Shown here in pieces: positions 3,515 through 30,813 of a stretch of DNA of 30,813 nucleotides. The position numbers were made by a program, and so were the translations under genes. Under the pieces are notes generated by a model. The model was not told where the DNA came from. It searched no databases and was given only the letters and a program-made list of their open reading frames with translations. Every line of letters starts with the position of its first letter. Within the stretch, counting starts at the first letter, position 1. The DNA comes from a virus. The stretch spans positions 1 through 30,813 of the IMG/VR virus record IMGVR_UViG_3300038954_000308. The stretch is one strand, 5' to 3'.

Positions 3515-4084
3515 CTATAAGACCCACTTTAATTCTTCTCTTGGCACGACAAGGTAGGAAAACCGCTTCCTCCGTATACCCTTGTCATACGTCCTGCAAA
3601 TGTCAAGGAACTCTTCAAGGTCATCTTCGTGCCTGAACACCTGACACCCTGCACTTGCTCTTTCTATCAAGTCATCATCATCACCCTGCCGGTGAAAATT
3701 AATGCCGAAGTACCCGCTTTCTACTATCTCCCCGGGGTCTTTGGCAAAGTTCATATTCTCGTCCCGCCAGACTGTTACCTTGTTGCCATGTTGCACGAGA
3801 CCCGGTTTCCCCTTGTGGAGCCCAAGCATCCACCCGTTCTTATGGAACCCGTAGCACAGGTGCGCTGCCCCCTTTTTGTTCAGAGGACGCAGCGTGTAGT
3901 ATACACCGGGGTCAGTGGTGGCAAGGTAAATCTCAACCTGTCCCCCGTGTGCGATAATGATGTGGTCATTGAACCTGTCAGCCTGCGCCTTCTCCTCGTT
4001 GCGAAGGCCAACTATCATCGGGTCTGCGGACACCCCGTGTTTTGCGAACAGTGTCACAATATCCTGATAATTTCTTGCACGCAT
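3515..4084 (-). CDS. putative endolysin, L,D-transpeptidase-like active-site pattern
   Basis: This encodes 189 residues. Residues 125-131 read YFGINFH, followed after 12 residues by SAGCQV (144-149). A conserved His followed by S-x-G-C is the active-site pattern of YkuD-type L,D-transpeptidase/carboxypeptidase folds, and similar IHR...GCQ strings occur in phage cell-wall enzymes. The central strands (VTVWRDENMNF and the preceding region) fit a beta-rich catalytic domain. There is no signal peptide, so export would depend on a holin; single-TM genes flank it on both sides. The expected role is cleavage of the host peptide stem at lysis. The fold assignment is inference from the motif, not an alignment. 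Confidence 0.5.
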   Translation of the reverse strand: MRARNYQDIVTLFAKHGVSADPMIVGLRNEEKAQADRFNDHIIIAHGGQVEIYLATTDPGVYYTLRPLNKKGAAHLCYGFHKNGWMLGLHKGKPGLVQHGNKVTVWRDENMNFAKDPGEIVESGYFGINFHRQGDDDDLIERASAGCQVFRHEDDLEEFLDICRTYDKGIRRKRFSYLVVPREELKWVL

Positions 4085-5242: not shown

Positions 5243-8200
5243 TTAATATGTTCTGTCAGAATACGGCATATCAGAGTACGGGAGCTCGCCGTATGGCGTC
5301 GGGCCCTCTTTCTGCGAGAACTCCCTGCGCCCAACAAGCGCCTCTCTGAGCCCAAGGTCATCCTGAATAGCATCAACCACCCGCTTGGTCTGTGATGTAG
5401 GAAGTCCACCAAGAAGCTTTAATGCACTCCATGCGCCCATCTCCCAGAATCTTTCCGGGTTCGAGAAGCCCTGTGATACCGAGTGGAGCGAGGAAGGGAC
5501 TGGGCCAAGAAAGCCGGAGCCAAACCTGATGCCACCACCGACAATAGGAACAAGCTTTCCGAACTCAGCCACCGCACGCAATGCTGCTATATGTGAGTCC
5601 TTCCCTTCTTCCTTGTACCGGTGATACGTATGTATTGGTGCAGGCATCGGCGACTCTATGCCGAGCATGTTTTCATACAGGAGATTCCATGACGAGTAAG
5701 TCATCGCAAGCACAAGCCCTGTTGCCATTTTCTGCCCGGCAGAATAGGTCATTGACGATGTGCCGCCTGCAAGCTCTCGTATCATATTCCAGTTTGCGGT
5801 TACAAACGTCTGGAACAGCGTGAGGGCCCGCCCTGTTGATGTCTTCTGTATGGGCGAGAGGTCGGTTTTCATCGCCGACGCCTGTGTACGTGCTACTATA
5901 TCGTCTGCGTATCTGGCAGCGGCCTCCGGGTCAAATGGCTGCTTGTTTACTTTTGTCATAGTGTGCTTGGCCTTCTGGTATGCACCCTCCCATACTGTCC
6001 GGGCTACCACGTAGTCAAGATTCTGCATTGCCCAAAAGCCGCCACGTATAAACTTCTGATGTGCTTCGCCGATGGAGGTCTTTGCATCCCTGCCAAGATT
6101 CCTTTGAACCATTGACGCAAAGTTCGCATCATCCGCATACTGCTTTCTTGAACCCATCTCTCGACTGAGGTTTACCGGGTTGTCCTCTGTGTTCATCTTT
6201 GGGAGTACCTCGGATACCATCTTCCTCATCCCAGTCATAACCCACTTGGCACCTATGTGCGGTACTGCCTGTGTGATTGCAGTCGTCTGACTCAAGACTG
6301 TTGGGATGCTGTACATGAGCATACTGGCAGTGAGATTGTTTGAAAACGTGTCTACTATCTTGTTTGCAGTCTTGGCCTGCTGCGTGGTATCTGCAAAGTT
6401 CCTGCCGGAAGAAAGCCAGTTCACGTAATCGGTAAGCAACTTAAACGCGTTCGGGGCCTGCGCCCTGAGTGAGAAATCTTGCCCGTTTATCTTTTCCACG
6501 TTGAGAATGTCGCTCGTCCGCTTTATCACTGGCTCCATGTGAACATACCTGAGTACGTCGGAAGTGTACTTCTCTGCTATCTTGAAGATATTTGTCTCAA
6601 TCTCGGCCGGGATAGCGCCTCTCTCAACATACTTCGGGGACAGCGCGTTTATTTGCCTCTCGGTCTTGATTCGTACCGGCGAAAGTCCTGTGTTTTCTGC
6701 GATGTGGTCGAGCTTCTTGAAGAAGGTCACATACTCAGCCTTCTCCCGTATCGGTTCAAGCCCGGCAGTAATCCTTGCCTTGTTATACCTGCGAAAGAGA
6801 TTCTTGTATTGCGCCTGTATGCTCTCCATTATGGCAACTTCGGACGCGTCAAGGGCTCTTACCTGTTCTGGGCGTATGCCCATGTTTTCCAGCGCCTCTA
6901 CGCCGTCTTTGCTCTTGCGAAGCATGTTGTATGTAATGGCGTCGGCGGAGTCCTTGTGCGGCGCCATGTCAATGTATTCTTTGATAACGTTTCTTGCGTG
7001 TGTTGTCTCCCGTGTTATGTTATCAAGCGCAGCCCTCGGCGCCTCAACAAATATTTCCTTTGTGAGCGTCCACCGCCCACCACTTATCATTTCTATAACG
7101 CGGTACCAGTTCTGGAACTGCTCAAATCCCATCTTCACATTATCCGGGTCAACACTGAAAATCTTTCCTATCGCCTTTGATGCCAGCCCGGCTTCATACG
7201 GGTCACGCAAAAGAGAAAGTTCGTGGGCTACTGGTTTTTCGAGCAAGACATCATGCTTAAACTCGACCTCTTGGCCGTTTCTGATGCGCCTTCCCCTTGA
7301 TTCGCCATGAAGAAACTGGTCGCTTTCAGGATATAACCTCTTTACAAGGTCTGTTGCGTTGGTTCTTAGCTTCGGCGATATATCATGACGCGAGAATACA
7401 GAGTCTTCGACAAATCCTTTAATCGTCCGCATGGTTTGTTGCTGTTTCGCCTTTGCTACAATGTTGCCAGTCTCAAGGTCAGCCTTCGTACTTACCTCTT
7501 TGAGCTCCCGTGGCTTATATATAAATTCTGTGTGCTTTACCGGCTCTCTGCTTTTTTCGTATACCAGTTCGCCGAGTTCATTCTCAACAACTTTTCTGCC
7601 TCTGGCATACCCCTTGCTACTATATACCGGTATTAATTCGTCCGCGTATGCTTCTATGGGCATCGCCTCTTTGCTCTTGCCGTACTTACCGCCGCCCCTT
7701 GGTAACCTTAACTCGGAATCGGTGGTGACAATCTCGTACCCGTTTATGTTCTTCTTCTTTGCCCGGAACACAACAAGCGGCTGCTCGTTGTTTTTTATGG
7801 ACTCAATGTACGCCTTGCCCTTGTCTGACCTGATAATCCGGTCTGACATGCCTTCTCCTTTCATCACACCGAAAACCACGTCGGAAACAACTTCGTCTCT
7901 CTGCTTATCGAGCGTACCCTTGCGAAACTTGGTCTTCTCCATCGACGGGTACCGTTCCCGCTGTATCTTCTCGGACATGGCATCTTCCATGCGGTTGAGG
8001 ATGTCCAGCCTGTTCTCTCTCGGTATCTCGTTTGACTTCAGCCCTTCGGTTATCTCCTTGTACTTCTGCTCACCAAGAAGCCTTCTGGCGTTGCCCATTG
8101 CGCTCATGAACGCTGTTCTATCATCCTTGGCGGACATGCCTTCCCGGTACAGTGCCTCCACGTCAAAGGACGGGGTTCTCCCCTCGCGCTTCGGGGTTCC

Positions 8201-9337: not shown

Positions 9338-10963
9338 TTAGAACGAGCCACTGGCCCAGTCCCCCTCTTCGATTTGCCGGGCTATTTGCGTAGGAGAAAG
9401 GGGGTTGCCTTTTCTATCTATAATCATATACCTGCTGCCAATTCCGACCCCGCTCAATACCCCCGGGTCTTTCTTTGGAACAATCCTATATCCATACTGC
9501 TTAATAAAATTCTTCAGCTTCGGGTCTTCGCGGATTTCATCAGGACTCAAATCACCAAGAACACGTGTCATCTCCTTGGCTATCTTCGCTTCAGTCATTG
9601 CATCTGGCGCATCCTGCGGAGTAAGACCTTCCCGATATACTGAACTCGCCCACCTTGAGGCGTTCCCTCTGCCCACTTTGCCAGCGAGTTCGGGGAGTGC
9701 CTTGTACAGTCTCTTCGTGAAATCCCCTGCGTCTTTGCTCGTTGCTGCGAGCTTATCGATTGTTCTCTTTTCTGAGTCTGTGAGCGATACCACCCTGCCG
9801 CCAAATCCAACGGCGCCGTACGTGTTGGTCTCGCCTCTTCTGGTACCGCCCCCTGGCTTGGTGAAGTTTCCAAACATCGCCATAACGTTGCGTGGGTCTT
9901 CATTGTAATAGGTAGCTATCCTATGCGCATTAAGCAACAAGTCTTCTGCGTTCCCGTTTCGCTTGTATGCCTCAAAAGCCGCACCAAGGTCATGCTCGTA
10001 CCCTTTCCCGAACTGCATACTGTCTGCGTCTTCCTGCATCTGCTGCATTTTTATAATATCTCCATACATGTCTGTGCCAGCTCCCGAGGAGCCTTCTATC
10101 ATCGACAGCATCTTGTCCTGTTCTTCCCTGCTCTTCTTCCCAAGAGCACTCAGAACACCCCTCTTATATACTTCATCGTTTTTCTGGAATCTTCCCGACT
10201 TCAGCTCATCTACTAATTTAGCGTGGGCCTTTACAGTGAGGCCAAGTTCGCTTGGCTTCATTTGGGTAACATCAACGCTTTTCTCTGCATACCCTTCTCC
10301 AGACAGCATACGGGCTGCCTCTCGTTCTGCTTCATAGGGAGTCCTTTCTTCATACCCCCTCATCCTCTCTGCGCCCGGAACTTGCTGGTTGACAAGCTGT
10401 TGCTGGCTGGCGGGCTGGGCGGGTACCCCCGGAGTTTCCAAAGATGCCGCATCAGACCATCCCCTGTTAATGGCTGCCTGCGCCCCTTCTGTATATACAG
10501 GACTACCGCCGGAGCCTCTTCTTATTGCGTTCTGGTTTATCATCGGCATCGCGTCTCGCTGATACATTTCTCCAGAGTGTCCTCTGCGTATCGCGTCGTT
10601 TATCTGGTCTTGTGAGTGCCCGAGGGCGCGAAGTCCGGCTTGACCCGCGATAGCCATACCAACCTCATCGGATACGGGGTTGTTGAGGGCGTCCCTCCTG
10701 CCTTCGATTGCAGCACGGAGTTTCTGCTCTCCGGCAAACTCTGGAGTCTGTATATCATGGCCGTACAGGTCTCTATACGCTTCCTGTATGGCCTGTGAGT
10801 TATTTGTCTCATATGCCATTTGCAGCTTGGCGATTTTTTGCTGCTGGTCTCTCTGCTTTTCAAGCGAGTACAGCCCGGCAATCTGGTTTGCGAGGTTCCC
10901 GCTTTGCAGTGCGAAATTCATCGGGTCTCTCTGTTGTGAAGGCGGTACTACTGTTATAGCCAT
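9338..10963 (-). CDS. internal virion/ejection protein, 541 aa
   Basis: The start ATG at 10963 follows AGGAGGTCAGCG. The product is Gln/Ala/Arg-rich and largely helical (LANQIAGLYSLEKQRDQQQK near the N terminus). Its middle is rich in Gly, Arg and Gln, and its C-terminal part holds SPDEIREDPKLKNFIKQYGY and ends EEGDWASGSF. No enzyme motif stands out. It ends three bases before the large ejection gene starts, and its start overlaps the previous small gene by ten bases. Composition and location fit the second ejection protein of a podovirus; a scaffold-like internal core role is the alternative. Confidence 0.55.
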   Translation of the reverse strand: MAITVVPPSQQRDPMNFALQSGNLANQIAGLYSLEKQRDQQQKIAKLQMAYETNNSQAIQEAYRDLYGHDIQTPEFAGEQKLRAAIEGRRDALNNPVSDEVGMAIAGQAGLRALGHSQDQINDAIRRGHSGEMYQRDAMPMINQNAIRRGSGGSPVYTEGAQAAINRGWSDAASLETPGVPAQPASQQQLVNQQVPGAERMRGYEERTPYEAEREAARMLSGEGYAEKSVDVTQMKPSELGLTVKAHAKLVDELKSGRFQKNDEVYKRGVLSALGKKSREEQDKMLSMIEGSSGAGTDMYGDIIKMQQMQEDADSMQFGKGYEHDLGAAFEAYKRNGNAEDLLLNAHRIATYYNEDPRNVMAMFGNFTKPGGGTRRGETNTYGAVGFGGRVVSLTDSEKRTIDKLAATSKDAGDFTKRLYKALPELAGKVGRGNASRWASSVYREGLTPQDAPDAMTEAKIAKEMTRVLGDLSPDEIREDPKLKNFIKQYGYRIVPKKDPGVLSGVGIGSRYMIIDRKGNPLSPTQIARQIEEGDWASGSF

Positions 10964-12468: not shown

Positions 12469-14463
12469 CTACCTCCTTGCCAGTAATCCTGCGTCTGCGT
12501 ACGCAGCTATTATGCTTTCAATGTATATCATATCATTTGTCCTCAGCTTAAATCTCACATTCTTCCCACGGTATACGTGGTTTGCGACATAATCATAGAG
12601 ATTATCTCCTGTTATGTCAATAGAAATTTCACTTGTCCATGTTTCTCCCTCGTCATAGGACATTGACAGGTGCAGCGTGCCGGTCTCTGCTTCTCTCGTA
12701 TAACCGGATATGACTGTCTGAAGGTGCCGAAAGGCGTGCCGGTAGTCGTTAATCGCATAGTCTTTTGTTATCAGCACTACCTCTATGCTCCCAAACCCGT
12801 CTACGTCTTCTCGCTCGTTGTATACGTACAGGCTTCCTTCTACGCCGACTGCCGGTAGCCACGTAACGCCTCTTTGTGTATAGTCTATAAACCGGATGCC
12901 CTCTTGGTCGGCAAACGACCCGGTCAAGTCGCATATTCTGGTAATCTTGTCAGTATACATATTCCCGGCCGAGTCTATACCTTTGTCAAACTTCCACTTT
13001 GACCACTTCTGAGTCTTCACGTTGTACGTGTAACAGTTGTACATGGTATCCATCCCGCCTTGGGGAACGAATAGGCAGTACAGGTCGAGCATGTCGAAAA
13101 ATACACCAACAGATTGCTCAATAAAGTTGTCTGACGCCGCAGCAAAAAGCTCCGTCGCTATCTCTTTCCCGATGCTTTGCACCTGAACGCCGTCAAACAT
13201 GTACACATCTTCCCACCCAAGAAAGATGTGATATCTGTCAACAGGGCACACCGTCCGTATGGACGGGGTTCCATATGGAAACAACCCCTCATCGTAATCC
13301 ATCGGGTTGCCCGCGTTTCCTGTTGCCCGCATAATCACAAGCGACTGCGCCTTATAGCAGACCACGCTTGTCTGGAGCTGTCGAAAGCCCTTCACCTCCG
13401 AGTCCTCTGCTATAAGCTCGTACCATTTATCGCCTGCAAACGTGTCAGGGTCTCCCCTGTCTGCAAGCTCAACCGTTTGAGGGTACCTGTTTCCATCGAT
13501 AACATCTACCACGTCCCCAATAAACAGGTGGTCATAAAAATACCCTATGTGGGCTGCTATTCGCTTTGTGCCGAGGTCCTCACAGTACGCATCGCCAGTG
13601 GCGCTATACATGTATTTCTGAATGTAGTCGAGCCCGTTTGTTATAACGACCATCTTTTCTCTTTCCGTGAGAACGATTGCCGAGAGTATCTCATGCGGAT
13701 AAAACTTGTCGCTTGACCAGCATATACGGATTACATAGTCAACCGATTCGGAGATATCAAGAGTTGTGTCTTCGAGTGTACACTGCGTGTCGCTATCCCA
13801 TGAGTCAACATTGTACCATGTGCTTATGTCGAACACGAGGTCGATGTCAACCCCGTCTGCGGCTGCGCTTGTGTCGAAAGTTATAGATGTATCTGCGACA
13901 AGCGACGAAACGGTCGCCCCGGACGGGAACTGTGTACATGGAGAAATGGCAAGACCTGCGTAAACATTGGACGTATCCGAGCAGGTAACTGTTGCCGAGC
14001 CGCTTGTTATCTGGCATGTTTTCGTAAACGAGTCTACGTTCATATCAAATGAACCGAACTTTGCCTTGCATATCCCGTTTGCCGGGTAATCTTCGTAGTC
14101 ATCCCACGTATCACTGGCAAGGGTGACGACACCGGATGCAACTGATACCGACCCAGCGGACTGGCTCCTGACGTTCTTGGTGATAAAGTTAAACCCCGTC
14201 CCGTAGTCAATAAAAGTGTCCCGGATAGTGGTAACAATAACTCCACGGACAAGAGTTAAAAGCGGGTTATACATGTATACGTTTGTGATGCGGTCACTTG
14301 TTGGTAGCGCCCCATGCAAAGGGAACCCGCCCCTCCGGTAAAAGCGCAGGTCGTCAAATATTATATTATCAGCCCTTGTTACGAGCTCGTCCGAGAGTTG
14401 CCGGGGTGGGTAGTCCTCCGACATCCCGAGAAGCTTCGGTATGGTCTTGTACTGCCACTTCAT
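12469..14463 (-). CDS. tail nozzle/stabilisation protein with an inserted repeat domain
   Basis: This encodes 664 residues from an ATG behind GGAGATAGAG. The sequence is beta-rich with repeated blades, including GTPSIRTVCPVDRYHIFLGW followed by EDVYMFDGVQVQSIGKEI, a pattern found in tail nozzle or stabilisation proteins of podoviruses (P22 gp10 and T7 gp12-type propellers). It would close the short tail below the adaptor. Residues 149-211 are a separate module about 75 percent identical (47 of 63 positions) to residues 50-112 of the glycine-rich fibre protein at 15887-16867. The module seems inserted before the propeller. The family placement is by pattern and position. Confidence 0.6.
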   Translation of the reverse strand: MKWQYKTIPKLLGMSEDYPPRQLSDELVTRADNIIFDDLRFYRRGGFPLHGALPTSDRITNVYMYNPLLTLVRGVIVTTIRDTFIDYGTGFNFITKNVRSQSAGSVSVASGVVTLASDTWDDYEDYPANGICKAKFGSFDMNVDSFTKTCQITSGSATVTCSDTSNVYAGLAISPCTQFPSGATVSSLVADTSITFDTSAAADGVDIDLVFDISTWYNVDSWDSDTQCTLEDTTLDISESVDYVIRICWSSDKFYPHEILSAIVLTEREKMVVITNGLDYIQKYMYSATGDAYCEDLGTKRIAAHIGYFYDHLFIGDVVDVIDGNRYPQTVELADRGDPDTFAGDKWYELIAEDSEVKGFRQLQTSVVCYKAQSLVIMRATGNAGNPMDYDEGLFPYGTPSIRTVCPVDRYHIFLGWEDVYMFDGVQVQSIGKEIATELFAAASDNFIEQSVGVFFDMLDLYCLFVPQGGMDTMYNCYTYNVKTQKWSKWKFDKGIDSAGNMYTDKITRICDLTGSFADQEGIRFIDYTQRGVTWLPAVGVEGSLYVYNEREDVDGFGSIEVVLITKDYAINDYRHAFRHLQTVISGYTREAETGTLHLSMSYDEGETWTSEISIDITGDNLYDYVANHVYRGKNVRFKLRTNDMIYIESIIAAYADAGLLARR

Positions 14464-15886: not shown

Positions 15887-16867
15887 CTATGTGACCCTCC
15901 CGAGTGCAGTTCCGTTATTCTGAAACTGGACGTTGGCTATGCCGTCGATGTAATATCCGGCTTCACCACCTGCGCCACCGGCGTTCCAAAAGCTTCCGTT
16001 TCGCAACCCATCCCCGCCGTCATTTCCGTTTTCGCCTACCATTCCTCCTGTCCCGCCTGTTCCCCCCAAGTAGTCGTTAGCAAACAATGAGTCAGCCCTG
16101 CCTGCGTGCCCAGTTCCCGGAGTAGTGAGTGTAGCTGTGCCGCCTGTCCCGTACCACGTCCCGCCGGGGCCGCCGCTTGAACCACAACCACCGCCACCCG
16201 AGCCGCCGTATGCACCAGCACTGGATTCTGTATCACCATCTCCACCACCACCGCCGCCTCCGCCGCCTCCAGCGATTGTATTCTTATTTACAACTGCAAT
16301 CTTCGACGACGCTTTGATAGCCGTTCCTCCGTCCTCTCCCGGTGCGCCAGAGGTGTTGTTTCGTCCGTTTCCACCCTTGCCACCGGCTCCATATATAGAA
16401 CCCTTGTTCACAAGTTTTACGGTATACCCGGACAGGTCGCCGGTTTCTATGGCGGGGTTGGGGGCGTCATCGGAGCTTATCGTCACCCCTGCCTGAATGA
16501 TTATCTCGACATTACCGCAGGGCACCGCAATGAATACGAGGTCGATGTCTGACCCGTCATCTGCGGCGTTAGTGTCAAATGTAATAGAGGTGTCGGTAAC
16601 GATAGAGCTCACCTTGGCCCCCGAGGGGAACTGGGTGCATGGCTTTATCGGCATACCTTCTGATATGTAGGAGGTATCAGCACAGTCAACCGTGGGAGAG
16701 CCCGACGTAATCTGGCATGTCCTCGTTGGACGCACAAGGTCAGAAAAGTTGAGGTTCTGTGTGTCAACGTCTATGGATATTTGCGGGTTATTACTTACAC
16801 AATCAAGCATAAGCCCTCCAAGCCACCTGAAGAAGCGTACTATCAGGTCGAGTAATTTTCGTATCAT
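15887..16867 (-). CDS. glycine-rich fibre/adhesin with shared repeat module
   Basis: This encodes 326 residues from an ATG behind ATAGGAGGCAAT. The N terminus is amphipathic and aromatic (MIRKLLDLIVRFFRWLGGLM), perhaps an anchor to the tail. Residues 50-112 form the module shared with the nozzle protein. The second half is packed with glycine, including a run of ten (GGGGGGGGGG near residue 200) and GGSGGGGCGSSGGPGGTWYG, and ends AGYYIDGIANVQFQNNGTAL plus GRVT. Gly-rich blocks with this kind of ending are known from polyglycine-II adhesins such as T-even gp38 proteins, which bind host receptors. An adhesin role is inference. Confidence 0.6.
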   Translation of the reverse strand: MIRKLLDLIVRFFRWLGGLMLDCVSNNPQISIDVDTQNLNFSDLVRPTRTCQITSGSPTVDCADTSYISEGMPIKPCTQFPSGAKVSSIVTDTSITFDTNAADDGSDIDLVFIAVPCGNVEIIIQAGVTISSDDAPNPAIETGDLSGYTVKLVNKGSIYGAGGKGGNGRNNTSGAPGEDGGTAIKASSKIAVVNKNTIAGGGGGGGGGGDGDTESSAGAYGGSGGGGCGSSGGPGGTWYGTGGTATLTTPGTGHAGRADSLFANDYLGGTGGTGGMVGENGNDGGDGLRNGSFWNAGGAGGEAGYYIDGIANVQFQNNGTALGRVT

Positions 16868-18835: not shown

Positions 18836-19840
18836 TTATGCCAGAGAACCACGGGCGGTGCATGCGCACTCGTACCGGATTATCCAATTTTCGTTCAGGC
18901 GTTTTGCAGTCATGGGGTGCTTCCACCCGACTGTTGCCCTCTGGTGCAATGGGTCGGCAGCACCGGCAGAACCAAGACCTTCAACGTATGTTTCTGCGTT
19001 CTTTTTCCCGAGAGGAATAACGCCATACGCGTCGGCTGCAACCGCGATACACTGGTAAACGTCAGCGTTGTCGCTGGTTTCCTTCACTGTGTCTGACGCA
19101 TCGGCTGCGCCAACCCCGTCGAGTATGGGGGCGTTCTGCGAAGCAAATATCCTGAACCCGTGTGCATAGCCAATCTCGTAAGGAGTTGACGGGGGTGAAG
19201 GATACTTGTGCGCGGGGATGAACCCGGTAAGGTTCTCCATGTCGCCGATGAGGTCGGTATGGATGTAGAGGTGAAAGGAAGGTGGTACGGGTGAAGTCCC
19301 CTGCCCTGAACCTGCCTTCTGAATGTCGGTAATATACCGGCCTTTTTCCCTGTGCAGCACCTCTCTGAGAAGCTTCAGGTCGGCGTCGCTTGGCGCGTCT
19401 ACGACGTTTGCTCGTGCCGATACCTTGTTTGCATAAAAGATAGACGAGCCACCCATCAGCGCGTCCCTGATTATCATGTCGTAGGTTTCCCCGGCCTGCT
19501 CGCCGTGTACTTCCTGCAACTGCGTGACAACAGGGTCTCTGTTGGTCATGTGGACTTCGTCTGCTGTTTCGGTAAAATCACCGTGCCACTGTACAGTAGC
19601 GGTGATATCTGTAACCGACGCGGTTTGTCCCGGAGGAGTGCGTCCTGCGGTAAGCGGAACCATTGCTGGTTCGTATGCGTTATAGCGTCGGAACTTGACG
19701 GTCTTGCTGTTTTTCTGAGGAAGAACGGTGGTCTGGGCTGCAAGGTCGTAAATCAGCCATGGTCTTGCCCTCTTGAGAAAGGTCCTCACATAAAACGCAT
19801 TGACCGCATCTGGTAACTGAGTCAGTGTGTTTATAGCCAT
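18836..19840 (-). CDS. major capsid protein, N4-gp56 family
   Basis: This encodes 334 residues from an ATG behind AGGAGAGTAACCT. Family-like blocks in order are FYVRTFLKRARPWLIYDLAA (residues 16-35), SKTVKFRRYNAY, VPLTAGRTPPGQTASVTDI, TATVQWHGDFTETADEV and GEQAGETYDMIIRDALMGGS. These match the N4-gp56 family of HK97-fold capsid proteins, which form the icosahedral or prolate shell. The length is near but somewhat below the family's usual 350-400 residues. The scaffold-like gene lies 11 bases upstream. Confidence 0.85.
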   Translation of the reverse strand: MAINTLTQLPDAVNAFYVRTFLKRARPWLIYDLAAQTTVLPQKNSKTVKFRRYNAYEPAMVPLTAGRTPPGQTASVTDITATVQWHGDFTETADEVHMTNRDPVVTQLQEVHGEQAGETYDMIIRDALMGGSSIFYANKVSARANVVDAPSDADLKLLREVLHREKGRYITDIQKAGSGQGTSPVPPSFHLYIHTDLIGDMENLTGFIPAHKYPSPPSTPYEIGYAHGFRIFASQNAPILDGVGAADASDTVKETSDNADVYQCIAVAADAYGVIPLGKKNAETYVEGLGSAGAADPLHQRATVGWKHPMTAKRLNENWIIRYECACTARGSLA

Positions 19841-28120: not shown

Positions 28121-28254
28121 GGTCGTTCAGGGAGAAACCGCACTTTACACCGGTCGTCCTATGCGCGCGCTTGCTCCGCTTGTGGGCTAACGGCTCCCCC
28201 CAGATTTTCTGGTGCGCGCGCCGGAATAACAACCGGCTATTTCAATGAACCATT
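28121..28254 (-). promoter_or_regulatory. structured 5' leader of the leftward unit
   Basis: On the minus strand the leader has a hairpin GCCGG-TTGTTATT-CCGGC. It then has GCGCGCGC pairing with a second GCGCGCGC about 50 bases later, enclosing a perfect CCAGA-AAA-TCTGG hairpin. No ORF with a ribosome binding site was found. The structures lie between the promoter and a gene that lacks an evident ribosome binding site. Confidence 0.5.
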
Positions 28255-28260
28255 GTGTAC

Positions 28261-28288
28261 ATGATACCACAATAAAATTTACTGTCAA
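28261..28288 (-). promoter_or_regulatory. leftward sigma70-type promoter with overlapping dyad
   Basis: On the minus strand TTGACA (28288-28283), a 16-base spacer and TATCAT (28266-28261, five of six). A dyad ATTGTG (28252-28257) / CACAAT (28268-28273) with a ten-base spacer is centred on the -10 box and could be an operator. It probably drives the first leftward genes. Confidence 0.65.
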
Positions 28289-28463
28289 CACTTTTTTGAA
28301 AAAAATCAGCGTATTTTCAAAAAAAATTACACTCGTCAAAACCGGCAATTCCAGCTATAAATATTTGTCTGCACAAATTCAGCTTTTTGATGATTAACTT
28401 TTGACCTGGACATTTTTCCGGTTTTTGTATATAAATTTATTCAAAAAAAATCTTGAAAAAGTC
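28289..28463. promoter_or_regulatory. AT-rich centre between divergent promoters
   Basis: No gene is seen. T-run/A-run dyads occur at 28292-28305 and 28314-28326, and again near 28440-28458 and at 28470-28480 within the rightward promoter spacer. Such tracts bend DNA and melt easily, so this may be an operator array, an activator region or an origin; no iteron or DnaA-box set was recognised. Confidence 0.4.
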
Positions 28464-28492
28464 TTGACATTTTTCAAAAAGTGATATAAAAT
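28464..28492 (+). promoter_or_regulatory. rightward strong sigma70-type promoter
   Basis: TTGACA (28464-28469), a 17-base spacer and TAAAAT (28487-28492, five of six). The predicted start near 28499 falls at the base of a 9-bp hairpin. It serves the right plus-strand unit beginning at 28700. Confidence 0.75.
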
Positions 28493-28498
28493 TTTAAT

Positions 28499-28699
28499 TG
28501 GTTGTTATGATTGTGCCTGTATAGCAACCATTGCCTACCGTATCTAATACCAGTGTACACCAGTGTATGCCGGGTAACGTACACGGGTAAGGGGATAGGC
28601 AAATGCCCAGTTTTTCATGGGCGAATCAGATTTTCCACACAAATGTGAGTGGTGTTTCCGGCTCACACTGTGTGAGTCGATATCAAGAGGAGGGTGGTC
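28499..28699 (+). promoter_or_regulatory. about 200-nt dyad-rich 5' leader
   Basis: Dyads in order are: GGTTGTTAT/ATAGCAACC (28500-28529); a long-range TTGCCTA (from 28530) / TAGGCAA pairing enclosing a ten-position ACCAGTGTAC/GTACACGGGT stem with one mismatch; GCCCA/TGGGC with an eight-base loop; and GGCTCAC/GTGAGTC with loop ACTGT shortly before the ribosome binding site GAGGAGG. ACCAGTGTA is also directly repeated. No ORF is seen. This could be a regulatory RNA leader. Confidence 0.5.
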
Positions 28700-29008
28700 A
28701 TGGATATAGACAAGCTGCTTGGTGAAGCCTTGGAGCTTCACGTTAAATACACCGAGATTATGGATAAGGTGGTCAGCGAGGTGGTAGAGATGTGCCTCGC
28801 CAACGAGGACTGCTTTGTTCACGAAGATAAGCTCATCGCTTGCCCACGTTACGGACGGGCCCGTGAGATAATAGAGCACCTCGAAGAGGTGCGGCTCCCC
28901 GTAAACGGAGCAATCGTTACGGTTCAAGAGAAGTTCGTCGGCATAGCCGAGCGTCTCGCCTGCGGTGAGCTGACAGTCCTGCTGGATAAGAACTGGCAGG
29001 AAGAATAG
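28700..29008 (+). CDS. hypothetical helical protein, first gene of the right unit
   Basis: The ATG at 28700 is preceded by GAGGAGG; a GTG six bases earlier overlaps that site. The 102-residue product is mostly helical (MDIDKLLGEALELHVKYTEI, VVSEVVEMCLANEDC, GRAREIIEHLEEV) with three Cys and an acidic composition. It is the first gene behind the strong rightward promoter, a place where phages often encode small host-takeover or regulatory proteins. No family is recognised. Confidence 0.55.
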   Translation: MDIDKLLGEALELHVKYTEIMDKVVSEVVEMCLANEDCFVHEDKLIACPRYGRAREIIEHLEEVRLPVNGAIVTVQEKFVGIAERLACGELTVLLDKNWQEE

Positions 29009-29022
29009 TATTTTGAAAGACC

Positions 29023-29053
29023 GTATCGCTATGTCACCATAGCATAGCGATAC
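29023..29053 (+). terminator. perfect 11-bp hairpin between right-unit genes
   Basis: GTATCGCTATG (29023-29033) pairs perfectly with CATAGCGATAC (29043-29053) around a nine-base loop. Because CATAG is doubled, GCTATG can instead pair with CATAGC (29038-29043) around TCAC, a mutually exclusive alternative. No U-tract follows. It may be a processing or stabilising element, an attenuator, or an operator. Confidence 0.5.
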
Positions 29054-29077
29054 AGAATGTCAACAACAAAAGGAGGT

Positions 29078-29103
29078 ATGATATGCACCAAGTCGGAGGG
29101 AAG
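29078..29103 (+). repeat. direct repeat, copy 1 (start region of the 136-aa gene)
   Basis: The 26 bases from ATGATATGCACCAAGTC onward match copy 2 at 29490-29515 at 25 of 26 positions (G/A at one site). Similarity continues upstream through AAAGGAGG and AACAAC. The copies lie 412 bases apart and bracket the gene. Confidence 0.8.
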
Positions 29104-29493
29104 CCGTTCAAAATCTCGTCAGCAGGAGAGACCTGTGAAGAGTTACGTGGAAAACCAAAAGGAATAAAGACGCAAGACCTTTACACCCTGTACTTCAAGC
29201 ATGCGTTTGAAAGCGATAGGGAAAACACTCGCCTATTGGTTGTCATGCACATTGCCGAAGGGGGGTGGTCGGGCGATGTAGAGGTATTAAACGACGACCC
29301 AGAGTGGAACGCTATGGTAAGAAGACTGCCTGTCAGTAAAAATCTCTATGCTATAGTGCAAGGATGTTGTGTTGGTCGCATAGTAGCCAATTACTCCGAC
29401 CGTGTTGTTATTCACCCAATAGTAGGTGTTGACAGGTTCTTGCGGTTTGCATGTACAGGAGAATGGAACAACAACCAAGAAAAAGGAGGATGA
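29083..29493 (+). CDS. hypothetical protein, 136 aa
   Basis: The start ATG has AAAGGAGGTATGAT upstream. The product begins MHQVGGKPFKISSAGETCEE, has a strand RLLVVMHIAEGGWSGDVEVL, a Cys pair (QGCCVGRIV), and ends EWNNNQEKGG. It shows an alpha/beta pattern without a recognised motif. The start region, including the ribosome binding site and first codons, is repeated directly after the gene's end (29490-29515). Confidence 0.55.
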   Translation: MHQVGGKPFKISSAGETCEELRGKPKGIKTQDLYTLYFKHAFESDRENTRLLVVMHIAEGGWSGDVEVLNDDPEWNAMVRRLPVSKNLYAIVQGCCVGRIVANYSDRVVIHPIVGVDRFLRFACTGEWNNNQEKGG

Positions 29494-29515
29494 TATGCAC
29501 CAAGTCAGAGGGAAG
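29490..29515 (+). repeat. direct repeat, copy 2 (end of the 136-aa gene and following start)
   Basis: This is the second copy of the 29078-29103 sequence. It overlaps the 3' end of the 136-aa gene and supplies the start of a 14-codon frame that leads into the next small membrane-protein gene. Confidence 0.8.
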
Positions 29516-29539
29516 AGGAGGTATTTATGGAGGCGTTAA
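29495..29539 (+). CDS. 14-codon leader-peptide-like frame
   Basis: ATG at 29495 with AAAGGAGGATGAT upstream codes for MHQVRGKRRYLWRR and stops at 29539. It is a copy of the start of the 136-aa gene brought in by the direct repeat. It overlaps the start of the next gene at 29527 and its AGGAGG, so its translation could couple to or interfere with that gene. It may be only a remnant of the duplication. Confidence 0.35.
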   Translation: MHQVRGKRRYLWRR

Positions 29540-29679
29540 CAATAATACTGTTCGGCATATTGTTCGGAGCGGCCCTCTTGGGGATGCTGGTCGCCGACGG
29601 GAAAACGGCAGTAGTGATGATGAGTATTGCTGTCGCCACTTTCATAGCCACGACAGTGATACTATCCGTACTGAGATGA
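29527..29679 (+). CDS. 50-residue membrane protein, two TM helices
   Basis: ATG at 29527 with AGAGGAGGTATTT upstream. The product has two hydrophobic helices, about residues 4-22 (LTIILFGILFGAALLGML) and 28-48 (AVVMMSIAVATFIATTVILS), separated by ADGKT: a hairpin-type inner-membrane protein. Phage early membrane peptides of this size often act in exclusion or host inhibition. A specific role cannot be read. The good ribosome binding site and regular amphipathy support the gene. Confidence 0.6.
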   Translation: MEALTIILFGILFGAALLGMLVADGKTAVVMMSIAVATFIATTVILSVLR

Positions 29680-29695
29680 ACCCTTGAAGGCGTAT

Positions 29696-29718
29696 GGGTA
29701 CGGCTTATGGCCGTATCC
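29696..29718 (+). terminator. 9-bp hairpin after the membrane-protein gene
   Basis: GGGTACGGC (29696-29704) pairs with GCCGTATCC (29710-29718), nine pairs with one G-U, loop TTATG. No real U-tract follows (ACACATCTTT). Probably a processing or partial termination element, 17 bases after the stop codon at 29677-29679. Confidence 0.45.
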
Positions 29719-29739
29719 ACACATCTTTAAGGAGGTGCT

Positions 29740-29925
29740 ATGGCCGAATCAAAAGTGACAAAGGAACAGGTGATTCGACGAGGGATTACCTGTGCAGGGT
29801 GCGGAACTCCGCTCAAGCTGGGTTCCGGGATGACCCGGATGAACGTGTTTTATCCGAAGTCGTCGGTGTCTTACTCATTTTGCAGGCAGTGTGCCCGCAA
29901 GATGAGTAAAAGATTTTCTGAATAG
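29740..29925 (+). CDS. small zinc-ribbon-like protein
   Basis: This encodes 61 residues from an ATG behind AAGGAGGTGCT. Two CxxC knuckles, Cys18/Cys21 (CAGC) and Cys48/Cys51 (CRQC), separated by 26 residues, are likely to bind one zinc ion. Flanking residues are basic (KVTKEQVIRRG, ARKMSKRFSE), consistent with binding nucleic acid or a host protein. It is similar in shape to many small phage zinc-ribbon proteins; the role is unknown. Confidence 0.6.
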   Translation: MAESKVTKEQVIRRGITCAGCGTPLKLGSGMTRMNVFYPKSSVSYSFCRQCARKMSKRFSE

Positions 29926-29928
29926 TGC

Positions 29929-29956
29929 TTGACATTGTTCAGAACCAAATTAAAAT
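29929..29956 (+). promoter_or_regulatory. sigma70-type promoter of the amidoligase gene
   Basis: TTGACA (29929-29934), a 16-base spacer and TAAAAT (29951-29956), the same -10 hexamer as the promoter at 28464-28492. The predicted start near 29963 leaves a very short leader with GGGAGGG before the ATG at 29979. Confidence 0.7.
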
Positions 29957-29978
29957 TAAATTATGTGGGAGGGCTTCT

Positions 29979-30813
29979 ATGGTTACTATCAGGAAGCAAG
30001 GCGTGGGCAAGAGGTTCGTTTACGCCGCAATTAACGCAGACATTTCTGTAGACGACAGTGTCTACAGGGTAGGTGAAGAGGGAGACGATGTGTATGTTTC
30101 CTTCGAGCCGGGAGCACTGGAGGCATCCATAATCGAACAGGGGTACTACGGCCAGCCGGGCATCCACAGGTGGGATGTCGCAACATCCTTAGTGCTCACA
30201 GCTGACGGGTATGTTCTGCGGTACACTAAGACAAGCGGGGAAAAGGTTTACGCCGGGTGGTACAAGGGCCCGGCAGAGCAATTAACCTTCGGGGGAGACC
30301 CCGAGTTTGAACTTGTCATGGGGGGGACTGTTGTTCACCCTGACGAGGAAGAGTGGGGCGACGAGTGTAGCGAAATCGGCCTCGACGGAGCTGGCGATGT
30401 GATAGAGCTGCGCCCCCACTACGGAGGTGCAGAAGGAATCATCGGCAACATACGAGAGCTGATGCACGAGGTGGAGAACACCTACGACGCGGTGTTCTCC
30501 GTCCGTGGAGATTGCTACGCCACCGGGGGGCATATCCATATCGGGTATGGGAGGCAGTATGTTCCCGGCAATGACGAGCTTTTCCTTCTCGACAAGTTCA
30601 TTGGATACCCGTCACGGTTTGCCAATGGCGAAGCACGAGGCGGATATGCCCGTATGTCAGCGTTCGAGGTGAAGCCGTACGGGTACGAGTATCGCAGCCC
30701 GTCAGCAGCGGTGTATGCGAACCCTCGAATCTGCGGGCTTACATTCCGCATTGTACGGGACGTGCTTAGAAGGTACAATGAGCACAAACCCTTCTATCTA
30801 TCAGAAAGAGCGG
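29979..30813 (+). CDS. phiEco32-type COOH-NH2 ligase (glutamine-synthetase-fold amidoligase), 3' end outside window
   Basis: 278 codons are visible from the ATG at 29979 (GGGAGGG upstream). After a roughly 100-residue N-terminal part come the family's blocks in order: FGGDPEFEL (104-112), GLDGAGDVIELRP (134-146), GGHIHIG (183-189), and YEYRSPSA (236-243). The acidic, His and Arg residues in these blocks correspond to the metal/ATP site of glutamine-synthetase-like amidoligases. The closest remembered family is the phiEco32-like COOH-NH2 ligase type 2. Known relatives are predicted to form amide bonds on peptides or cell-wall-like substrates and are often beside a glutaminase-type amidotransferase and an ATP-grasp enzyme. 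The substrate here is unknown. The gene has its own promoter. Confidence 0.75.
   Translation, partial: MVTIRKQGVGKRFVYAAINADISVDDSVYRVGEEGDDVYVSFEPGALEASIIEQGYYGQPGIHRWDVATSLVLTADGYVLRYTKTSGEKVYAGWYKGPAEQLTFGGDPEFELVMGGTVVHPDEEEWGDECSEIGLDGAGDVIELRPHYGGAEGIIGNIRELMHEVENTYDAVFSVRGDCYATGGHIHIGYGRQYVPGNDELFLLDKFIGYPSRFANGEARGGYARMSAFEVKPYGYEYRSPSAAVYANPRICGLTFRIVRDVLRRYNEHKPFYLSERA

Follow-up and report, generated by a model that had tools for sequence, protein, structure and literature searches.

The right end of the contig

The window, by which we mean the whole stretch of DNA analysed, is a 30,813-base viral contig whose record is classed as linear or unmarked. Packaging and virion genes, including a P22-like portal (297.6 bits), lie on one strand, and a group of small genes on the opposite strand runs rightward from 28694 and off the right end of the record. 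The last gene of this group encodes the COOH-NH2 ligase studied here (Table 1). Its frame is open from a GTG at 29925, starts with the ATG at 29979 and contains no stop up to 30812, yielding 278 residues; judged from the full-length relative L266, about 155 residues would be missing from the protein. An exact 32-mer search found no viral contig that extends the record past 30813. No replication genes were recognised in the 30,813 bases, and the piece is therefore probably an incomplete genome.

The sigma-70-like site listed in Table 1 ends 22 bases upstream of the ligase ATG, and a Shine-Dalgarno-like sequence stands between the two. Positions 28200-30813 contain seven promoter-like sites, as compared with 2.8 ± 1.6 in shuffled sequences, making a promoter of the ligase's own plausible but unproven. 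The initial annotation had placed the gene behind an independent promoter; the good match to a sigma-70 site stands, but its promoter role is only plausible, as there are other such sites and an equal one, at 28464-28492, lies upstream of the whole rightward gene group.

Elsewhere in the window, the 189-residue protein of 3515-4084 (minus strand) matches phrog_3000, of unknown function (8.9e-35), and the endolysin family phrog_33083 (1.4e-16), and it is probably a lysis enzyme. Two proteins of the virion region, encoded at 12469-14463 and 15887-16867 (both minus strand), share ~65 similar residues, TCQITSG...PCTQFPSGA..VSS...TSITFDT..A.DG.DIDLVF, as if a segment had been duplicated internally between a tail-like protein and a fibre-like one rich in glycine. 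A search found no relatives of the 334-residue protein of 18836-19840, capsid-like by position.

Table 1. Coordinates of the ligase gene, its parts and upstream elements in the window, and of HExxH-type genes on related contigs
Feature	Sequence	Position	Strand	Remarks
COOH-NH2 ligase (PF14395), compact form	window	29979..30813	+	first 278 codons; gene cut by the record end
N-terminal extension, residues 1-98	window	29979..30272	+	no detectable relative; low-confidence model (pLDDT <50)
Catalytic domain as present, residues 99-275	window	30273..30803	+	predicted glutamine-synthetase-like fold
Motif 1, GGDPEFEL, residues 105-112	window	30291..30314	+	G105, D107, P108, E109 invariant; E111 at least 90%
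Motif 2, DG...IELRP, residues 136-146	window	30384..30416	+	D136, G137, E143, R145 invariant
Motif 3, GGHIHIG, residues 183-189	window	30525..30545	+	H185, H187 invariant
Motif 4, YGYEYRS, residues 234-240	window	30678..30698	+	G235, E237, Y238, R239 invariant
Sigma-70-like site, TTGACA-16-TAAAAT	window	29929..29956	+	11 of 12 matches; predicted
Shine-Dalgarno-like GGGAGGG	window	29967..29973	+	read directly
Zinc-ribbon-like gene, 61 residues, two CxxC pairs	window	29740..29925	+	weak phrog_672 match; directly upstream of ligase
HExxH-type gene	L265	3551-3877
HExxH-type gene	L267	9033-9344
HExxH-type gene	L268	3200-3523
HExxH-type gene	L269	9993-10298
HExxH-type gene	L270	12477-12791
HExxH-type gene	L272	11645-12232
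HExxH-type gene	L279	5014-5352
HExxH-type gene	L281	9651-9974

A compact clade of phage COOH-NH2 ligases

We now turn to the ligase's family. The four blocks on which its initial assignment to the phiEco32-type COOH-NH2 ligases relied, GGDPEF (105-110), IELRP (142-146), GGHIHIG (183-189) and YEYRS (236-240), are all present in the open reading frame, and the Pfam check agrees with that assignment. PF14395, the one Pfam family matched, scores 23.5 bits with all 278 residues and 25.3 bits with residues 101-278, borderline at its curated cut-off of 25 bits. The six scored relatives that share the protein's short motif spacing, called compact below, reach 53-85 bits (L266, L279, L265, L267, L089 and L190), and the low score of the window protein fits its truncation and divergence. 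The window ligase also matches phrog_3815 (1.9e-7). By hhalign, comparing it with profiles from which it was absent, it aligns with the compact relatives at an E-value of 9.7e-39, and its second half aligns with the long-form ligases of cultured phages at 1.1e-14; the compact and cultured-phage-type profiles align with each other at 4.6e-24. The blocks are not a chance occurrence, because relatives with 33-42% identity over ~170 residues, one of them on a bacterial contig (40%), and the first of these E-values accompany them. On this sequence evidence the protein is a member of PF14395.

The GxDPE, E..P, GGHxHxG and GxEYR motifs are common to the window protein, six cultured-phage ligases and 16 compact relatives. 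Six residues (E109, E143, H185, H187, E237 and R239) are invariant across 17 aligned sequences, the window's among them, and in this fold they would bind metal, ATP and substrate. Apart from the window's own copy, none of 24,854 collected frames is related to the N-terminal 104 residues. Of the 17 compact proteins aligned, 14 carry an N-terminal extension and three start almost at the catalytic domain; the extensions align poorly. They differ between compact proteins and are thus a variable part; the extra 100 residues, initially one reason to suspect an undescribed system, are not by themselves a sign of one.

Structure prediction agrees with the glutamine-synthetase fold that had been proposed. 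The AlphaFold model of the window protein has a pLDDT of ~90 for most of residues 101-270. It superimposes on YbdK (1r8g) with Z 10.4 and rmsd 3.4 over 170 residues, and it also resembles a bifunctional glutathione synthetase (Z 10.4) and many glutamine synthetases. The model of the full-length relative L266 (pLDDT 89.6) reaches Z 13.4 and 12.9 to YbdK-type proteins and Z ~11 to gamma-glutamylcysteine synthetase, glutamine synthetase, PafA and Dop. A plain Foldseek search of the PDB with the window model gave no significant match, probably owing to the poorly modelled N-terminus. The catalytic domain is accordingly predicted to have the glutamine-synthetase / gamma-glutamylcysteine-synthetase fold. 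Motifs and model together indicate that the enzyme is almost certainly an ATP-dependent carboxylate-amine ligase of this fold. The YbdK and glutamate-cysteine ligases (GCS2-type; 1r8g, 1tt4, 3ln7) share the fold and, presumably, the HxH motif, but their structures are only 13-14% identical to the window protein, and the compact relatives differ from them in having an amidotransferase partner. A PDB sequence search found no match to the window ligase, and its sequence does not place it among the glutamate-cysteine ligase/YbdK proteins.

Within PF14395, the ligases of Pseudomonas phages PA11 and UFV-P2, Salinivibrio phage CW02 and Escherichia phage EP335 have the same fold and order of motifs as the window protein, but overall identity is 22-28%. 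The distance from DPE to GGHIH is 76 residues in the window, 76-88 in the compact clade and ~120-140 in the long form. The long spacing, which includes a GCEPDxNAW block, is found in cultured-phage ligases and in all but a few of the first 80 IMG/VR relatives; the window ligase lacks the GCxPDxN block that marks the long form. Compared with that form, the window protein has its N-terminal extension, and the compact relatives have a C-terminal one as well. PF12224 (Amidoligase_2) occurs in the same long-cassette neighbourhoods and has a weak structural likeness (Salinivibrio CW02, Foldseek E 0.013), but the window protein matches neither its profile nor a profile of five cassette members.

Searched directly, neither IMG/VR nor the cultured phages yielded a relative of the window protein, and relatives were reached solely through an alignment and a scan for the GGHIHIG pattern. 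The alignment of compact proteins with the window protein led to 14 viral and six bacterial-genome loci. In a tree from which poorly filled columns, and hence the insert, were removed, 21 compact rows (the window included) separate from 40 long ones with an SH-aLRT support of 99.9. An earlier tree, in which the insert columns and the rows with long branches remained, required two changes, though a single compact clade was not rejected (p-AU 0.94). By alignment and tree, the window ligase belongs to a separate compact clade of PF14395. Two candidates, L012 and L013, were rejected as compact ligases: both are of the long form, and their DPE was a chance match.

The clade was met solely on viral contigs from metagenomes and on a few bacterial ones. 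Its members (in IMG/VR, L265-L275; on Desulfovirgula, Thermocrinis and Lithacetigena contigs, L279-L281) share the window's compact spacing, but their N-terminal parts are unlike the window's, and in several the ligase gene has one or two others close to it. Three bacterial assemblies with good matches carry one to three compact ligase copies each, and a search of cultured phages with an intact compact ligase gave no matches. The compact ligase was absent from all 34 viral records with the closest terminases, many of which are short fragments, suggesting that the gene is gained and lost among phages.

Genes adjoining the compact ligases

We clustered the frames of 20 contigs with compact ligases (L119, L122, L163 and L265-L281) and ran profiles of cassette proteins, taken from cultured phages and compact loci, on all collected frames. 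In 19 of the 20, the ligase has a class II glutamine amidotransferase gene as its direct neighbour; the last contig, L276, ends within its ligase. Of these amidotransferases, 13 form one family and five a second, to which L119 and L122 belong with the gene upstream of the ligase; that of L277, which starts with MC, was identified by eye. The gap between the two genes is mostly -23 to +120 bases. At compact loci, the amidotransferases mostly begin with MC and match GATase_4, GATase_6 and GlmS weakly. In the long form, the amidotransferase is often 1.3-2 kb away, with an Amidoligase_2 gene between in several cultured phages, though long-form cassettes share with compact loci the pairing of class II amidotransferase and ATP-grasp.

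ATP-grasp frames lie near the ligase in 10 of the 20 contigs. In eight, a frame of ~100 residues and HExxH type directly follows the amidotransferase (Table 1), with the motif intact in seven; the L281 protein is without the first His, which we count against our main reading. The family is weakly SprT/WLM-like, with one member exceeding the Pfam SprT-like cut-off. We found no description of an HExxH gene alongside phage amidoligases in the searchable literature, a body that does not include the founding paper of the family, reportedly that of Iyer et al. in 2009. Against NCBIfam and PADLOC, the ligase has no match and the partners have only weak GlmS, ATP-grasp and HExxH matches; therefore, this is not a listed defence system.

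Other features stand out at some of the loci. Two or three ligase genes stand in tandem or close together within one cassette in L265, L266, L275 and L280; several ligases per cassette may reflect heteromers or successive ligations. In L281 (Lithacetigena), consecutive similar genes (MSKYYTLEEVRSIRNEISKLGER...) at 5379-7130 and 9978-10457 flank the ligase cassette, a tandem family with one copy within it. Small CxxC frames like the one upstream of the window ligase are also found in L266 (11926-12228, minus strand), L277 (11898-12197, plus strand) and L190 (3599-4096, minus strand), and may be a common phage feature only.

The profile search found no partner genes in the window, where the record ends inside the ligase; extrapolating from the relatives, they should lie past 30813, and a class II amidotransferase gene very probably follows the ligase directly. 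The initial proposal that a system continues beyond the record is thereby probably right, as the relatives have a class II amidotransferase, and often an ATP-grasp gene, as neighbours. Its family and fold were sound, and its partners have good backing in the relatives; what it missed was the compact clade, the small glutaminase and the frequent small HExxH protein. Nor is the system undescribed as a whole, since COOH-NH2 ligase cassettes are annotated in many cultured phages (PA11, UFV-P2, CW02 and others). The window gene belongs to a known kind of system, of which the compact clade, with its small set of partners, is a distinct form.

Candidate activity and its alternatives

To our knowledge, no phage ligase of PF14395 has an experimentally shown substrate, and we found no report of a tested one in the literature searched. 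The fold is uninformative on this point, with peptide, amino-acid and protein ligases all at similar Z. The explanation that we favour overall, by a modest degree of confidence, is an amide-forming ligase that would draw ammonia from a glutaminase and act on a carboxylate of a peptide, a protein or the cell wall. The amidotransferase would split glutamine and pass the ammonia to the ligase, which with ATP would convert a substrate carboxylate to an acyl phosphate and then to an amide, or couple another amine. At loci that have a RimK-like ATP-grasp enzyme, it would attach an amino acid to that substrate, and the small HExxH protein would serve to trim the modification or take it off. The altered carboxylate would be on a host peptide, protein or cell-wall peptide, modified during infection to the phage's benefit, for instance against superinfection.

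Parts of this reading differ in strength. Amidation with glutaminase ammonia is its likelier element. A peptide, protein or cell-wall target is somewhat favoured by the ATP-grasp and HExxH neighbours and by a published conjecture for phiEco32 relatives, cited in PMC10580990 and PMC11318856, that the cell wall is altered against superinfection. The main rival, which we consider possible but doubtful, is a metabolite target: a small-molecule ligase of YbdK or gamma-GCS type would form a gamma-glutamyl or similar metabolite amide and feed the infected cell's nitrogen or redox metabolism. YbdK-type proteins and gamma-GCS are indeed the top structural matches, long-form cassettes also hold gamma-glutamyl cyclotransferase genes, and an auxiliary metabolic role was proposed for the amidoligase set of Phage-ZRK32 (PMC10945688). 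However, profiles detected no gamma-glutamyl cyclotransferase near the compact ligases of L265-L281, some of whose loci are short, and the adjoining HExxH protein better suits a peptide or protein substrate.

The HExxH protein also bears on a PafA-like reading, in which the ligase would join a protein or peptide tag to its target through an isopeptide bond and the HExxH protein would be the protease that matures or removes the tag. PafA and Dop have the same fold at Z ~11, and both the frame after the amidotransferase in eight of 20 contigs and its one SprT-like member above the cut-off fit such a protease. We nevertheless consider tagging unlikely: no gene for a Pup-like or other tag came to light, the amidotransferase points to ammonia and not lysine as the amine, and 12 of the 20 contigs yielded no HExxH gene. 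Finally, the gene might be a decayed or inactive fragment, as its frame is cut and the L269 ligase is split into several frames in a ligase/amidotransferase region with broken frames. In the window, the frame is interrupted by the record running out and not by a stop, 278 codons are open and all conserved residues are present, making decay highly improbable.

Returning to amidation of a peptide, protein or cell-wall carboxylate, the window gene would probably be the first of a peptide- or cell-wall-modifying kit. More tentatively, the compact ligase, class II glutaminase, RimK-like ATP-grasp enzyme and HExxH protein might together work as a distinct phage system for placing an amide modification on a protein or cell-wall peptide of the host and taking it off again, an undescribed form of covalent host control.

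Phage COOH-NH2 ligases are widespread, and the compact cassette, consisting of a ligase, an adjoining glutaminase and often one small HExxH gene, is smaller and would be an easier set for expression and assays. Should it prove to amidate a cell-wall peptide or a protein of the host, the cassette would show how such phages change the host's surface or its proteins.
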